Source: Corynebacterium pollutisoli (GTDB lineage Bacteria > Actinomycetota > Actinomycetes > Mycobacteriales > Mycobacteriaceae). From it: a DNA stretch of 64,000 nt. The stretch spans positions 496,001 to 560,000 of the forward strand of contig NZ_FXAR01000001.1 in NCBI RefSeq assembly GCF_900177745.1, read 5' to 3'. The notes below the pieces were generated by a model. It was not told the DNA's origin, did not search any database, and saw only the letters and a program-made list of their open reading frames with translations. This document shows, piece by piece, positions 30,138 through 36,646 of the stretch (positions are counted from its first letter, which is position 1; each line of letters opens with the position of its first letter). The translations under genes were made by a program, and so were the position numbers.

Positions 30138-30920
30138 GTGACTGATGCGGAGAATAACCCCGAGGAGCTGACCGGGTCGACGGCGGCGTCGGCAAGCGAG
30201 GCGGACAACGCCGAGGAGAAGAAGCCCGCACCGTGGTACATCGAGATTCCCGTGGTCATCGCGGTGACGCTGCTGGCGATCTTCCTCATCCAGACGTTCG
30301 TCGGGCGTGTGTACATGATCCCCTCGCAGTCGATGGAGCCGACGCTGCACGGCTGCGCCGGGTGCACGGGTGACCGCATCTTCGTGGACAAGGTCAGCTA
30401 CCGTTTCTCCGATCCGAAGGCCGGGGATGTCGTGGTGTTCAAGGGCACGGACTCGTGGAACCAGGGGTTCGTGTCCCAGCGTTCGCAGAACGATGTCGTG
30501 CGGGCGCTGCAGAATGTCGGCTCCTACGTCGGCCTCGTCGCGCCGGATGAGAATGACCTGGTCAAGCGCATCATCGCCACCGGTGGGCAGACGGTGTCCT
30601 GTCAGGAGGGTGACCCGGCCGTCATGGTCGACGGGCAGCCGGTCGACCAGTCCTACACGCTGACCCCGGTCGCGTACCCGGTCGATCCGGCCACGGGGTC
30701 CGAGGCCTGCGGCGGCCCCTACTTCGGCCCGCTGACCGTGCCCGAGGACAACTACTTCATGATGGGCGACAACCGCACCAACTCCGCCGACTCCCGCGCG
30801 CACATCGGCGACGAGCACCAGGGCACCATCCCGGAGGATCACATCCGCGGCAAGGTCCAGGCCATCATCTTCCCGTTCAACCGCATCGGCGGTGTCGCCG
30901 ACCCGGCGATCCAGGAGTAG
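30138..30920 (+). CDS. lepB: Signal peptidase I
   Basis: LepB removes signal peptides of secreted proteins on the outer face of the membrane. The 260-residue S26A protease has one N-terminal membrane helix ([20 protein letters not shown]), the nucleophile in SQSMEPTL (Ser65), the general base in [12 protein letters not shown] (Lys143) and the [15 protein letters not shown] motif. The N-terminal 30 residues are acidic and cytoplasmic. Cys72 and Cys75 in HGCAGCTGD are an actinobacterial feature. The stop codon shares a base with the rnhB GTG. Confidence 0.96.
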
Positions 30921-31540
30921 TGGAGGAGCTTCTCGACGCCCGCGGTCTCGGCCCCGTCGCCGGCGTCGACGAGGCGGGGCGCGGCGCCTGCTGCGGGCCG
31001 CTCACCGTCGCCGCGTGCATCCTCCCCGCAGGCCCGGTCGACGGCCTGGAGAAACTCACCGACTCCAAGAAGCTCACCCCCGCGTGGCGGGAGAGGCTGT
31101 ACCCGCTCATCATCGACGCCGCGCTCGCCTGGTCGGTGGTGACCATCTCCGCCGCGGCCATCGACGCCCGCGGCATCCAGCACGCCAACATCTCCGGCAT
31201 GCGGCGCGCCGTCGCGCAGCTGGAGGTCCGCCCCGGGTACGTGCTCACCGACGCCTGGCGCATCCCGGGGCTCGACGTCCCGCACCTGCCCGTCGTCGGC
31301 GGGGACGCCGTCGTGCGCTCCATCTCCGCGGCGAGCGTCCTGGCCAAGGTCACCCGCGACCGGCTCATGGTGGAGATGGACGCCCGCCACCCCGGTTACG
31401 GCCTGGCGTCGCACAAGGGCTACTCCACGAAGGCGCACATGGCTGCGGTGCGGCAGCACGGTGCGACCGCCGAGCACCGATACACTTACGCCAACGTCGT
31501 GAAGGCCCACGACGAGTGGCTGAGCATGCAGGAGGTTTGA
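30920..31540 (+). CDS. rnhB: Ribonuclease HII
   Basis: RNase HII nicks RNA-DNA hybrids at single ribonucleotides. The 206-residue enzyme has the catalytic [14 protein letters not shown] motif (Asp17, Glu18), the LTDSKKLTP motif, the [10 protein letters not shown] acidic site and the [15 protein letters not shown] motif. GTG 30920 overlaps the lepB TAG by one base. The order lepB-rnhB-DUF2469-yraN-comM-dprA is a conserved actinobacterial block. Confidence 0.96.
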
Positions 31541-31543
31541 GAA

Positions 31544-31849
31544 GTGAGCGCTGAGGAACTCGACAACTACGAGGCAGAGGTGGAGCTCTCCCTGTACCGC
31601 GAGTACCGGGACGTGGTCAGCCAGTTCTCCTACGTCGTGGAGACCGAGCGCCGTTTCTACCTGGCCAACGCGGTGGAGCTCATCCCTCACACCGACGGCC
31701 GGGACGTCTACTACGAGGTCCGCATGTCGGACGCGTGGGTGTGGGACATGTACCGTTCGGCCCGTTTCGTGCGTTACGTCCGCGTCATCACCTACAAGGA
31801 CGTCAACATTGAGGAGCTGGACAAGCCTGACCTGGTGCTTCCCGAGTAG
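31544..31849 (+). CDS. DUF2469 family protein
   Basis: This 101-residue acidic, Tyr/Arg-rich soluble protein (AEVELSLYREYRDVVSQFSYVVETERRFYLANAVEL...YYEVRMSDAWVWDMYRSARFVRYVRVITYKDVNIEEL) is the conserved actinobacterial DUF2469 protein always found next to rnhB. Its function is unknown. It starts 3 nt after rnhB and is almost certainly in the same transcript. Confidence 0.92.
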   Translation: MSAEELDNYEAEVELSLYREYRDVVSQFSYVVETERRFYLANAVELIPHTDGRDVYYEVRMSDAWVWDMYRSARFVRYVRVITYKDVNIEELDKPDLVLPE

Positions 31850-31889
31850 CACATTTCGCGGATCCGCGTCGTCCGCCCCCGGCCCCGCC

Positions 31890-31913
31890 TGTGGATAACC
31901 CGAGTTATCCACA
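31890..31913. promoter_or_regulatory. Inverted pair of perfect DnaA boxes
   Basis: TGTGGATAA (31890-31898) and TTATCCACA (31905-31913) both match the strict DnaA-box consensus. They form a 10-bp palindrome with a 4-nt loop in the 153-bp DUF2469-yraN spacer. No dnaA, dnaN or recF is near, so this is not an origin. It may be a DnaA titration or regulatory site, or simply a hairpin after the rnhB operon. Confidence 0.7.
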
Positions 31914-32002
31914 GAAACGGGGCTTTTCTACTTGTCCGCACTTTTCTTCCCGCTTCTCGACGCCCACCCTGGGGTCACCACACCAACTCCAGGGGGAAGC
32001 AC

Positions 32003-32374
32003 ATGTCAGTAGCCCATAAACGTCGCACCCGACTCGGCCGCCGGGGGGAGTCCGAGGCCGCCGCCTTCTACCGCCGCCGTGGGGCGGAGGTGCTCGACCG
32101 TAACGTCTCCTATCCCGTCGGCGAGCTCGACCTCATCTGCCGGGAACCGGACGGCACCATCGTGTTCGTGGAGGTCAAGACCCGTTCCGGCCGGGGCTTC
32201 GGCGGGGCGGAGGCCGTCACGGGCCGCAAGCTCGCCCGTCTCCGCCGGGCGGCCGCGCGCTGGTTGGAGGGCCGCGAGTATGCCCGCGTGCGTTTCGACG
32301 TCCTCGTGTTCACCACCATCCGCCACGGCTTCGACGTGGAGTTCTACGAGGGGGTCGAACATGGCGCTCGGTAG
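32003..32374 (+). CDS. yraN: YraN/UPF0102 endonuclease-fold protein
   Basis: The 123-residue protein has the UPF0102 core, a PD-(D/E)xK-like fold: LGRRGESEAAAFYRRRGAEVLDRNVSYPVGELDLICREPDGTIVFVEVKTRSG, where ELD and EVK would be the catalytic acidic and lysine residues. The function is not established; a role in DNA processing is suggested by its steady association with comM and dprA. It overlaps the comM start by 14 nt. Confidence 0.92.
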   Translation: MSVAHKRRTRLGRRGESEAAAFYRRRGAEVLDRNVSYPVGELDLICREPDGTIVFVEVKTRSGRGFGGAEAVTGRKLARLRRAAARWLEGREYARVRFDVLVFTTIRHGFDVEFYEGVEHGAR

Positions 32375-33833
32375 AACCCGCACCGTCGCCCTCGACGGGG
32401 TGACGGCCCGCCCGGTCACCGTCGAGGCGAACATCGGCCCCGGCCTGCCCGGCATCCACCTCGTCGGTCTCGGCGACACCGCGGTGAGCGAGTCGAAGGA
32501 CCGCGTGCGCACCGCCGTGGCCAACTCCCGCCTGCCGTGGCCGAGGACGAAGATCATCGTGTCGATGTCCCCGGCGTCGCTGCGCAAGTCCGGCTCCCAC
32601 TTCGATCTCCCCACGGCCCTGTCCGTGCTGGCGGCGGGCGCACCGGCACCGCGGCTGCGGGATGCGGTGGTGGTCGGGGAGCTCGGTCTCGACGGCTCCG
32701 TCCGCGAGGTCCCCGGCGTCCTGCCCGCCCTGCTCGCCACCCGCACAAATGGCTTCACCCATGCGATCATCCCGCCGGGCAACGCCGCCGAGGCGACGCT
32801 CGTCGACGATCTCACCGTCCTCACCGCCCCCTCGCTCACCGCGGCGTGGGCCTGGGCCACCGGGGAGGGGGAGCTGCCGGTGGCGGTGGGTGACGGGGGA
32901 GCCGGGCACGTCGGTCAGTGCTCCGTGCCGGACTTCGCCGACCTCGCCGGGCAGCGGGAGGCCCGGTTCGCGGCCGAGGTGGCCGCGGCGGGCGGGCACC
33001 ACATGCTGCTCATCGGCCCGCCCGGGTCGGGGAAGTCGATGATCGCGGCGCGCCTGCCGGGGATCCTCCCGCCGCTCACCCCGGCGGAGTCGCTCGAGGC
33101 CACGGCCGTGCACTCGGTGGCCGGCAACGGGAGGGTGGTGAGGCGGGCCCCGTTCATCGACCCGCACCACTCCGTGACCCGCGCCGCCCTGCTCGGCGGG
33201 GGACCGGGCACCGCGCGGCCGGGGGCGGTGAGCCTGGCGCATCACGGAGTGCTGTTTCTCGACGAGGTCTCCGAGGTGCCGGCCGCCATCCTCGACGGGC
33301 TGCGCACCCCGCTCGAGGACGGGGAGGTCAGACTCCTGCGCGCGCAGCGGGAGGTGGTGTTCCCGGCCCGGTTCCAGCTGGTCCTCGCCGCCAACCCGTG
33401 CCGCTGCGCGGCGGAGGACCCCGCGCGCTGCCGCTGCCGCTCACACGAGCGCGCCGGGTACCTGCGCAACCTCTCCGGCCCGATGCGGGACCGGCTGGAC
33501 ATCACGGCCCGGACCTCGGCGGCCGGGGTGCTGGTGGGGGAGGAGGAGTCCTCGGAGGTCATCGCCGGGCGGGTGACGGCGGCGCGGGAACGGGCGATGG
33601 CGCGCTTCGGGTGTGTCAACGCCGCGACGGATCCGCACCTGCTGCGTCGCGAGTACCCGGCCGACGACGTCGGGATGGCACTGCTGGGGTCGCTGCTGGC
33701 GACGGGGGACATCACCCAGCGGGGCGTCGACAGGGCCCTGAAACTGGCGTGGACGCTGGCGGACCTGGAAGGGGCCGGGCAACCGACCCTCGACCACGTC
33801 CACCGGGCGGCGGAACTGCGGGAGGGGGCATGA
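32361..33833 (+). CDS. comM: ComM-like Mg-chelatase AAA+ helicase
   Basis: ComM is a hexameric branch-migration helicase acting in natural transformation and recombination. The 490-residue product has the N-terminal Lon-like domain (VEANIGPGLPGIHLVGLGDTAVSESKDRVRTAVANS), Walker A GPPGSGKSM, Walker B GVLFLDEVSEVP, a Cys cluster CRCAAEDPARCRCRSH and the C-terminal ChlI-like domain. The inner ATG 32361 is chosen because the conserved N-terminus begins there. It overlaps yraN and dprA. Corynebacteria are not known as natural transformers, yet they keep comM-dprA. Confidence 0.94.
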   Translation: MALGRTRTVALDGVTARPVTVEANIGPGLPGIHLVGLGDTAVSESKDRVRTAVANSRLPWPRTKIIVSMSPASLRKSGSHFDLPTALSVLAAGAPAPRLRDAVVVGELGLDGSVREVPGVLPALLATRTNGFTHAIIPPGNAAEATLVDDLTVLTAPSLTAAWAWATGEGELPVAVGDGGAGHVGQCSVPDFADLAGQREARFAAEVAAAGGHHMLLIGPPGSGKSMIAARLPGILPPLTPAESLEATAVHSVAGNGRVVRRAPFIDPHHSVTRAALLGGGPGTARPGAVSLAHHGVLFLDEVSEVPAAILDGLRTPLEDGEVRLLRAQREVVFPARFQLVLAANPCRCAAEDPARCRCRSHERAGYLRNLSGPMRDRLDITARTSAAGVLVGEEESSEVIAGRVTAARERAMARFGCVNAATDPHLLRREYPADDVGMALLGSLLATGDITQRGVDRALKLAWTLADLEGAGQPTLDHVHRAAELREGA

Positions 33834-34981
33834 GGGACTGGGCGTACCTCAACCGGGTCGTCGAGGGGCCCTCGCGTCCGCTGCAGCAGCTGCTGGCCGC
33901 CGGGCGGGACGCCTCCGAGATCGCGCACGGCGTGCGGTCCCGCGCCTCGTGGCTGGGGGAGCTGGCCGGTCAGACCGCGGCCCGTGCCACGTGGGACCGC
34001 GCGGAGGAGGACCTGGCGGCGGCCGCCGCGGTGGGGGCGCGTCTCATCACCCCGGAATGCGCGGAATGGCCGCGCGAGGAGTTCGACGTCGCCTTCGGCT
34101 TCGCCGCCACCGGCCGCAGCGAACACCTGCGCAGCTACCAGGACGACGCCGTCCCTCCGCATGCGCTGTGGGTGCGGGGCGGGCCGTTGCGGCCGGCGGT
34201 GGCGCAGTCCGTCGGGGTGGTGGGTACGCGGGCGGCGACCCGCTACGGGCTCGAGGCGACCCGGCAGATCGCCACCGGCCTGGCGTCTCACCAGTGGACG
34301 GTGGTCTCCGGCGGGGCGCTCGGGGTCGACACCGTGGCGCACGAGGCGGCCCTGGGAGCCGGTGGACTGACGGTCGCGGTGGCGGCGTGCGGCATCGACC
34401 GCACGTATCCGGCACGCAACGCCGCGCTGTTCGACCGGATCGCCGGGCAGGGGGTGTGCGTGACCGAGTACCCGCCGGGTACCCCGCCGCAGCGCCACCG
34501 CTTCCTCACCCGCAACCGCCTGGTGGCCGCGCTCACCGCAGGTACCGTCATCGTCGAGGCGGCCTGGCGCTCGGGGGCCCTCAACACGCTGTCGTGGGCC
34601 GAGGGCCTGGGCCGGGTGGCCATGGCGGTGCCGGGTCCGATCACCGGGGCCGGGTCGCTCGGCTGCCACGAGCGCATCAAGGAGGGCCGCGCCCAGCTGG
34701 TCACGGGGTCCGACGACATCCGGGCGCTGCTGGGTGCCGCCGGAGCACTCGACGTCGCGGAGCAGTATGAGCTGGCCTTCGCGGCCACCCCGGTGCAGTC
34801 GCTGACGCGCAACGAGCTGCGGGTCTTCGACGCGATCGACCCCACCGGGTCCGTCGCCCAGGACATCGCGTTGGGCGCCGGCCTGCCCCTGCCGCTGACG
34901 GTGCACCTGCTCCTCGAGCTGACGAAACGCGGGGTGGTGACGCGGGAGGGGACGGTGTGGTCCCGCGCGGATAGACTGTGA
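33830..34981 (+). CDS. dprA: DNA-processing protein DprA
   Basis: DprA loads RecA on incoming single-stranded DNA. The 383-residue protein has the Rossmann-like core with GVVGTRAATRYGLEATRQIATGLA, TVVSGGALGVDTVAHEAAL, GTPPQRHRFLTRNRLVAAL and VEAAWRSGALNTLSWA, and a C-terminal winged-helix DprA domain (DAIDPTGSVAQDIALGAGLPLPLTVHLLLELTKRGVV). It overlaps comM by 4 nt. Within its last codons a TAGACT box (34972-34977) may start transcription of the recombinase gene. Confidence 0.95.
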   Translation: MRDWAYLNRVVEGPSRPLQQLLAAGRDASEIAHGVRSRASWLGELAGQTAARATWDRAEEDLAAAAAVGARLITPECAEWPREEFDVAFGFAATGRSEHLRSYQDDAVPPHALWVRGGPLRPAVAQSVGVVGTRAATRYGLEATRQIATGLASHQWTVVSGGALGVDTVAHEAALGAGGLTVAVAACGIDRTYPARNAALFDRIAGQGVCVTEYPPGTPPQRHRFLTRNRLVAALTAGTVIVEAAWRSGALNTLSWAEGLGRVAMAVPGPITGAGSLGCHERIKEGRAQLVTGSDDIRALLGAAGALDVAEQYELAFAATPVQSLTRNELRVFDAIDPTGSVAQDIALGAGLPLPLTVHLLLELTKRGVVTREGTVWSRADRL

Positions 34982-35871: not shown

Positions 35872-36339
35872 CTACGGATTCGGCTTCAAACGGATCACCG
35901 GCGCGTCGAGCAGCCCCAGCGGGTTGACGTAGTCGTCCGGGCCCCGCCGCGCGCCCCAGTGCAACCCCGGCCAGCCGTCCACGGGGTGTCCCAGGATGCC
36001 GAGCATCTGCCCTTCGCGTACCTCCTCGCCCCTTGCCACCCGCGCGTGGACGGGCTGGTACGTGGTGCGCAACCCGTTGGCGTGGTCCACCGACACCGTC
36101 GGGGTGCCGGCCACCACGCCCGCGAAGGCGACCACCCCGTCCCCGGCCGCCACCACCGAACCTCCCACCGGCAGTGCCAGGTCGACGCCGCGGTGGCCGG
36201 GCAACCAGTTGTGCGCGGGCCGATCGAAGGCGCGCAGGACGTGGACGGAGCCGGTCGGGGAGACGTAGGCGTGTGCGACCCCCGCCACCCCCGGCGCAGC
36301 CACCAGCAGGAACACAAGTACAACGACAATCCACCGCAT
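35872..36339 (-). CDS. Secreted M23 metallopeptidase
   Basis: The 155-residue protein has a signal peptide (hydrophobic core VVVLVFLLVAAPGVAG, cleavage near AHA) and a LytM/M23 domain with zinc motif HRGVDLAL and second motif LHWGARRG. M23 enzymes cut peptidoglycan cross-links, or act as inactive activators when metal ligands are lost; here the H-x3-D and HxxG-like motifs seem present, although HxH is replaced by LHW. It converges on xerC with a single base between the two stop codons. Confidence 0.88.
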   Translation of the reverse strand: MRWIVVVLVFLLVAAPGVAGVAHAYVSPTGSVHVLRAFDRPAHNWLPGHRGVDLALPVGGSVVAAGDGVVAFAGVVAGTPTVSVDHANGLRTTYQPVHARVARGEEVREGQMLGILGHPVDGWPGLHWGARRGPDDYVNPLGLLDAPVIRLKPNP

Positions 36340-36646
36340 ACCCGCGACGGTAGGGGCGACGGGGAGGGGCGGGGCGTCGATAAGCGGGGGACCTGTGGAT
36401 GATGGGGCGGATGTGACGAACCTGTGGACAACTCCGTGTCCCGGTTTGGTGTTCGCAGGCCAGGGGGCTAAAGTAGGCGCCAGCAGTGTGCCCGAAAGGC
36501 GTGCGCTGACTACGCGCGGCGGGGAAGACCGACGTTGACACGGTCCCGGGTATCCGGGTGTCGGCGGCCGGCCTCGTCGCTAGGGTGCAGGACAAAAACC
36601 TGCACGTCAGACAGAAAACCGAAAACTACCAGAAAGTGAGCGTGAC
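36340..36646 (+). promoter_or_regulatory. rpsB promoter and structured leader
   Basis: This 307-bp spacer has no gene. A promoter TTGGTG (36445-36450), 18-nt gap, TAAAGT (36469-36474) would give a leader of about 165 nt. The leader contains a CCCGG/CCGGG hairpin near 36545 and a 7-bp hairpin GTGCAGG (36585-36591)/CCTGCAC (36599-36605), 41 nt before the rpsB start. Upstream lie two DnaA-box-like sequences, TGTGGATGA (36394-36402) and TGTGGACAA (36423-36431), and CGTCGATAAG (36375-36384). Confidence 0.6.

Follow-up and report, generated by a model that had tools for sequence, protein, structure and literature searches.

Paired DnaA-type boxes upstream of yraN–comM–dprA recur before DNA-uptake genes in Corynebacterium and are probably read by DnaA

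The box pair in the DUF2469–yraN spacer

The stretch of Corynebacterium pollutisoli DNA analysed here (64,000 nucleotides; the window) raises the question of what two perfect DnaA boxes are doing in the spacer between a DUF2469 gene and yraN. Positions 31889-31914 read CTGTGGATAAC-CCGA-GTTATCCACAG, with 11-bp arms and a 4-nt loop. The left arm (31889-31899, minus strand) carries the box TTATCCACA at 31890-31898, followed by a G, while the right arm (31904-31914, plus strand) carries the second box at 31905-31913, the 10-mer ending 88 nt before the yraN ATG. Both match the 9-mer exactly and by this match belong among the DnaA boxes, understood as TTATCCACA or a close variant, as at the oriC of this genome. 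A degenerate third box, TTGTCCGCA, with one mismatch to TTRTCCACA, is found at 31932-31940 on the plus strand. The sequence-only reading had described two exact boxes in a 24-bp palindrome; the boxes and the inverted arms are as described, the palindrome reaching 26 bp once the flanking C and G are counted. No other exact copy of TTATCCACA is present in the 64-kb window, for which 100 dinucleotide shuffles gave a mean of 0.02 copies and in no case two. With one mismatch allowed, seven matches were found in the window as against 2.2 expected, a number reached in 1 of 100 shuffles.

The spacer is preceded by rnhB (30920-31540; Pfam RNase_HII) and the DUF2469 gene (31544-31849; Pfam DUF2469, 3.5e-49). 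It is followed by yraN (32003-32374; NCBIfam YraN family), by a gene that we take to be comM from its set of Pfam Mg_chelatase and ChlI domains (32361-33833) and by dprA (33830-34981; Pfam DNA_processg_A, 5e-63), all these genes being on the plus strand and the starts of the last two having been set by script. The earlier remark that no replication gene lies nearby is fair, the upstream operon holding rnhB. As to the supposed remoteness from the origin, dnaA, dnaN and the box cluster between them are indeed on another contig (C12), but in a draft assembly the distance is undefined.

The palindrome is extended by outer arms (GGCCCCG/CGGGGCT) followed by TTTCT, and the resulting hairpin with its T-rich tail (31881-31930, plus strand) is predicted by folding to form a terminator-like end of the rnhB–DUF2469 operon. 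The 156-nt region around it folds at z = -4.57; a consensus terminator scan reported none at the hairpin, and Rfam gave no match in 31500-32300. At this locus, the palindrome probably doubles as an RNA-hairpin terminator of the upstream operon.

Boxes in the genome and the genes behind them

The box had been thought rare in this genome, but the reverse is true: the draft assembly (2.54 Mb, 15 contigs) contains 37 exact copies of TTATCCACA as against 2 for the reversed control, so that the box is over-represented and dispersed. The 10-mer TTRTCCACAG occurs 49 times (2 in the control) and inverted pairs of the form TGTGGA-N6-24-TCCACA 23 times (1 in the control). Twelve of the 49 10-mers fall at replication loci, as judged by Pfam labels, namely in the dnaA–dnaN interval, ahead of dnaA, ahead of dnaB and between crgA (the counterpart of Rv0011c) and a rhomboid gene, clusters of boxes being present between the latter two genes and upstream of dnaB (L023, L025). 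Manual sorting of the 37 non-replication boxes placed 33 of them at a set distance before a gene start, mostly in pairs. Two of the four left over lie at contig ends, in promoter sequence like that of the HNH genes described below; another precedes a carbon-nitrogen hydrolase gene, where the pair is out of register and 13 nt before the ATG, and the last is within a coding sequence (C14:162818).

The genes behind the boxes include several expected to serve DNA uptake. The 10-mer ends 52 nt before the start of comEA (TIGR01259, HHH_3) and 51 nt before that of ssd (TIGR03815), which is followed by a TadA-like T2SSE ATPase gene of the Tad pilus, whereas it ends 88-89 nt before the start in the case of yraN and of a second ssb, encoding an SSB paralogue. 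A further element lies within the window itself, before a gene for an M23 endopeptidase (35872-36339, minus strand; Pfam Peptidase_M23). Its nearer box, TCATCCACAG (36393-36402, minus strand), ends 53 nt before the ATG, and TTGTCCACAG (36422-36431, minus strand) is a direct repeat 29 bp upstream of it. The comEA and M23 boxes of this genome are of the TTGTCCACAG type rather than exact copies of TTATCCACA. What marks a competence regulon, a cis-element shared by uptake and DNA-processing genes, is thus present here.

Other genes with the element appear to belong to mobile or nuclease-like families. In ten HNH-family copies (L013, L016, L017, L019, L026, L027, L109, L110, L116 and L120), several of them cut by contig ends, the box ends 53 nt before each ATG. 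L019 and L026 match Pfam HNH and the other copies are 56-100% identical to L019, L026 or L016 by BLAST; the ten are one family and not all independent. The box also precedes four DUF559-like genes, ending 52, 52, 61 and 62 nt before the start; the nuclease-like DUF559 match was obtained in the relative L348, the own-genome members tested having no Pfam match. The box promoter recurs in this family of proteins of about 300-330 aa (L010, L015, L028, L158 and L348). The remaining cases are a DUF4192 gene, with a box ending 54 nt before a GTG or 63 nt before an ATG, and two genes with neither a Pfam nor an NCBIfam match, in which the box ends 51 nt before the start.

Two further observations concern these promoters and genes. 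At several members a second motif, resembling TTRTCGACG, was seen in the stretch that separates the box from the start codon (window 31930-31960 and 36365-36395; L009, L011, L016 and L019). Its distance varies, and it was not retained as a -35 element on account of this varying placement. In addition, comEC appears to be interrupted in this strain, with pieces at C5:171783 to about 172440 and at C5:210132 (L156, L153, L220 and L221). The pieces match positions 1-33 (below the cut-off) and 28-262 of Pfam Competence and lie about 38 kb apart; between them are a type I restriction system, IS1380 and IS6 transposases, a class 1-type integron integrase and sul1. The gene for the DNA-uptake channel has probably been broken in this strain by a resistance island.

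Conservation, position and phasing of the boxes

Conservation was followed in 41 genomes, comprising this one, 24 of the same genus and 16 of the order. Matches to each gene occurred in 39-41 genomes, from which the best 30 loci per gene were taken, and boxes were scored upstream with at most one mismatch, the same-genus counts including the own genome. Among these loci, upstream boxes were present for comEA in 19 of 19 same-genus loci (33 boxes as against 0.5 expected) and 7 of 11 from other genera, for tadZ in 19 of 20 (38 against 0.7) and 8 of 10, for M23 in 24 of 24 (35 against 0.8) and 4 of 6, for yraN in 16 of 22 (29 against 0.7) and 4 of 8, and for ssb in 19 of 21 (32 against 0.6) and 3 of 9, where the matches from other genera may include the housekeeping paralogue. 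Across all sets, 0.25-0.81 boxes were expected from the rest of the loci and 4 to 38 observed, the control being mostly coding and the intergenic rate about five times higher. With intergenic sequence alone, target gaps contained 4.36 boxes per kb as against 0.32 per kb in other gaps (12 of 215 gaps), the 108 target gaps coming from 150 loci, of which the remainder gave no gap of at least 40 bp.

The position of the boxes is conserved as well. The distance from the end of a box to an in-frame ATG or GTG, any such start being accepted where several exist, is 49-54 nt for comEA in 18 of 19 loci of the genus and 5 of 11 from elsewhere, for tadZ in 16 of 20 and 1 of 10, and for M23 in 15 of 24 and 2 of 6; at comEA and tadZ, most loci of the genus have 50-53 nt between the last box and the start codon. 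Taking all box-to-ATG pairs within 150 nt at these three genes, 50 of 131 fall at 50-53 nt. A set position relative to the start codons of orthologous genes, as is looked for at DnaA-regulated promoters, is therefore a property of these boxes. Most of the comEA promoters displayed also have a TAGCGT-like -10 sequence followed, after 7-8 nt, by the start codon, an arrangement that would be expected of leaderless transcripts.

An open search for an exact box with an ATG at 48-52 nt and a T six bases before the ATG returned 26 matches in 17 of the 41 genomes and none in the reversed control. Eighteen precede families that also carry the element in the own genome: eight HNH (six in a single genome, G016), four DUF559-like (one from the own genome), three ssd, two comEA and one M23. 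Five belong to open reading frames of 27 codons or fewer, two of which (L352 and L355) we take as oriC boxes because they lie close to dnaN. The other three precede different genes (L342, L343 and L361). The gene at L361 (1563-2243, genome G010) encodes a sigma factor of sigma-70 type, ECF-like, whose predicted start lies 52 nt beyond the end of a box, and a regulatory cascade in that species is possible.

The spacer itself is more variable. In 21 Corynebacterium DUF2469–yraN spacers, drawn from the best 80 of 580 loci and scored at no more than one mismatch, there were seven inverted pairs, five direct pairs, one single box and eight without boxes; in Dietzia, each of two records has a single box. 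The direct pairs are all exactly 18 bp apart and cannot form this hairpin; one of these species (L044) carries another hairpin with a T tail. As inverted pairs give way to direct ones in this one spacer, the boxes outlast the pairing. The opposite outcome, in which boxes are lost while pairing is kept and which would have favoured a plain terminator, is mostly not seen, given the five direct pairs, although the eight boxless spacers do count against strict conservation.

The distances between adjacent boxes of a promoter follow a period of about 11 bp, in direct and inverted pairs alike. Direct spacings are 18-19, 29-31, 41-43, 50, 62-63 and 72, with one off-phase at 26, and inverted spacings are 16-18, 27-29, 39-42, 50 and 60-61, with some at 21 and 32. 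Random spacings reached the direct value in 0 of 5000 sets and that for inverted pairs in 4 of 5000; each spacing entered the test a single time for a given gene (21 direct, 24 inverted), one direct spacing of 10 was left out, and the species are related, so that these values are not strict probabilities. Such phasing is what a protein bound to one face of the DNA would give, rather than an RNA hairpin.

The reader of the boxes

The explanation that fits best, to which we assign a probability of roughly 0.6, is that the inverted boxes serve the yraN–comM–dprA promoter as its paired upstream element, within a natural-transformation regulon that is probably read by DnaA. Control of yraN–comM–dprA, one of the options raised by the sequence-only reading, would thus hold, without being confined to these genes: it would extend to the whole gene set, the boxes being one of a set of promoter elements for DNA-uptake and transformation genes that may act together in transformation in this organism. 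In the leaderless-looking members (comEA, ssd/tadZ, M23 and HNH), the last box is 51-53 nt before the start codon in the own genome, which would place it just upstream of a presumed -35 element; yraN and ssb seem to have leaders, to judge from their last boxes at 88-89 nt, if transcripts start where this arrangement suggests. A pair of boxes that face the same side of the helix would be bound by a protein acting cooperatively, of which DnaA is the likeliest candidate, and bound DnaA would recruit or gate RNA polymerase, acting by activation rather than repression. The DNA-uptake genes would thereby be tied to the state of replication initiation.

That the element belongs to an uptake regulon, whatever protein reads it, we regard as very likely. 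DnaA is its probable reader on the strength of the box sequences. The genome encodes a single protein with a Bac_DnaA_C domain, DnaA, and a second DnaA-type protein was dropped as a candidate, there being none. The core consensus of the uptake boxes agrees with that of the oriC boxes of the same genomes, a likeness partly built in, both sets having been picked by TTRTCCACA. Among exact same-genus boxes, a G at position 10 is found in 109 of 134 uptake boxes as against 45 of 100 oriC boxes, an excess that makes another protein possible. The choice of A or G at position 3 shows a weak correlation with that at oriC (rho 0.38, P = 0.06), with no clear co-variation after removal of GC content (rho 0.25, P = 0.23), and was discarded as proof of DnaA. 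In the section of the mycobacterial work consulted, in vitro binding of the M. tuberculosis protein and ChIP-seq of the M. smegmatis one agree on five strong DnaA regions, and com and tad genes are not among them (PMC7738170); E. coli DnaA is described as preferring boxes 2-3 bp apart (PMC11317965). These maps, this preference and the loss of co-variation beyond GC content argue against DnaA. Against the regulon reading as a whole count the yraN spacers that lack boxes, the out-of-register pair at the carbon-nitrogen hydrolase gene, the box within a coding sequence, the kinship of the ten HNH copies and the apparently interrupted comEC. The maps and the preference would suit another activator with a DnaA-box-like site acting on the same regulon, as would the stronger G at position 10, the spacing here being unlike that of the E. 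coli pairs and such targets being absent from the part of the mycobacterial maps consulted (PMC7738170; PMC11317965). We nevertheless consider such an activator unlikely, though possible: the enriched site is the exact DnaA box TTATCCACA, and the genome holds no other Bac_DnaA_C protein, a survey that covers the DnaA-type fold only.

Three other explanations remain. According to one, the palindrome is a plain intrinsic terminator of the rnhB–DUF2469 operon, whose stem resembles DnaA boxes by chance. A stable hairpin followed by a T-rich tail is present in the window and similarly in L029, L030 and L035, so a terminator function can coexist with the box role, and may do so where the pair is inverted. 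As the whole explanation it was rejected and appears improbable, given that direct repeats persist in 5 of 21 Corynebacterium spacers, that boxes recur before the same other genes and that chance would hardly place two exact copies in the window. Even less credence is due to the view that the boxes are a dispersed repeat of the mobile HNH genes or a DNA-uptake sequence. The ten related HNH copies, with one box-to-start distance and several of them cut by contig ends, would fit a repeat, but the boxes also stand at orthologous comEA, tadZ, M23, ssb and yraN genes across the genus. DNA uptake sequences occur in hundreds of copies and are not tied to promoters; here there are tens, with 37 exact copies in the 2.54 Mb, most of which stand at replication loci or keep a set distance from the gene that follows, and they are tied to gene starts. 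The least probable reading, by a small chance indeed, is the datA/DARS-like titration or reactivation site that had been suggested. The boxes are perfect, and any DnaA bound to them would be titrated to some degree. Known datA and DARS, however, are unique sites of clustered boxes with IHF or Fis sites, whereas this locus has only two boxes and a degenerate third, is one among many dispersed paired sites, and shares with many promoters a set position relative to start codons; a lone titration site was rejected on the genome census.

DnaA boxes and the role of DnaA as a transcription factor are already known, and the regulon proposed here can be placed among established systems. ComK, ComX and CRP-S govern competence regulons in which one operator recurs at dispersed com genes. 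The present case is alike in that a single short motif marks pilus, uptake, ssb and dprA/comM genes; it differs in the motif and in that the likely reader is the replication initiator. With DnaA-regulated genes described elsewhere it shares the 9-mer (PMC7738170, PMC11317965, as far as the accessible text goes). The own-genome replication clusters resemble four of the five mycobacterial regions in the available part of that report, while the uptake promoters, mostly with two phased boxes, lie outside the regions it lists (PMC7738170); the pairs of the E. coli regulon, in the excerpt at hand, are 2-3 bp apart (PMC11317965). Tad pili and ComEA/EC are known in actinobacterial transformation from Micrococcus luteus (PMC8467076, PMC4322843, PMC6667448, PMC12849477, in part), whose transformation genes have comEA-comEC, tad and dprA in common with the set found here (PMC4322843, PMC8467076, PMC12849477). 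The accessible portions of these M. luteus papers mention no cis-element (PMC4322843, PMC8467076, PMC12849477, PMC6667448), and one of them describes the competence regulatory cascade as unidentified (PMC12849477). Among the matches listed in a literature search of titles and abstract openings, with few subscription papers, none linked a DnaA box to a competence promoter.

Implications for natural transformation

The control of natural transformation in Actinomycetota is described as an open question in the text available from M. luteus work (PMC12849477). A cis-element that is conserved and keeps a precise position ahead of most uptake genes in the survey offers a candidate regulon and a candidate regulator, and hence a testable lead on how DNA uptake is switched on in these bacteria. 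It is tempting to go further and to propose, at somewhat less than even odds, that natural competence is under the direct control of DnaA as master regulator throughout Corynebacterium and in parts of the wider order. On this view, pairs of DnaA boxes in helical phase would activate the genes for the Tad pilus, ComEA/EC, an SSB, ComM-DprA and a cell-wall hydrolase, and DNA uptake would be licensed by the state of replication. The mobile HNH and DUF559-like nuclease genes would then carry the same promoter for expression when foreign DNA enters, and their possession of the element suggests that selfish nucleases exploit that moment. If DnaA is indeed the reader, DNA uptake would be wired directly to the initiation of replication.
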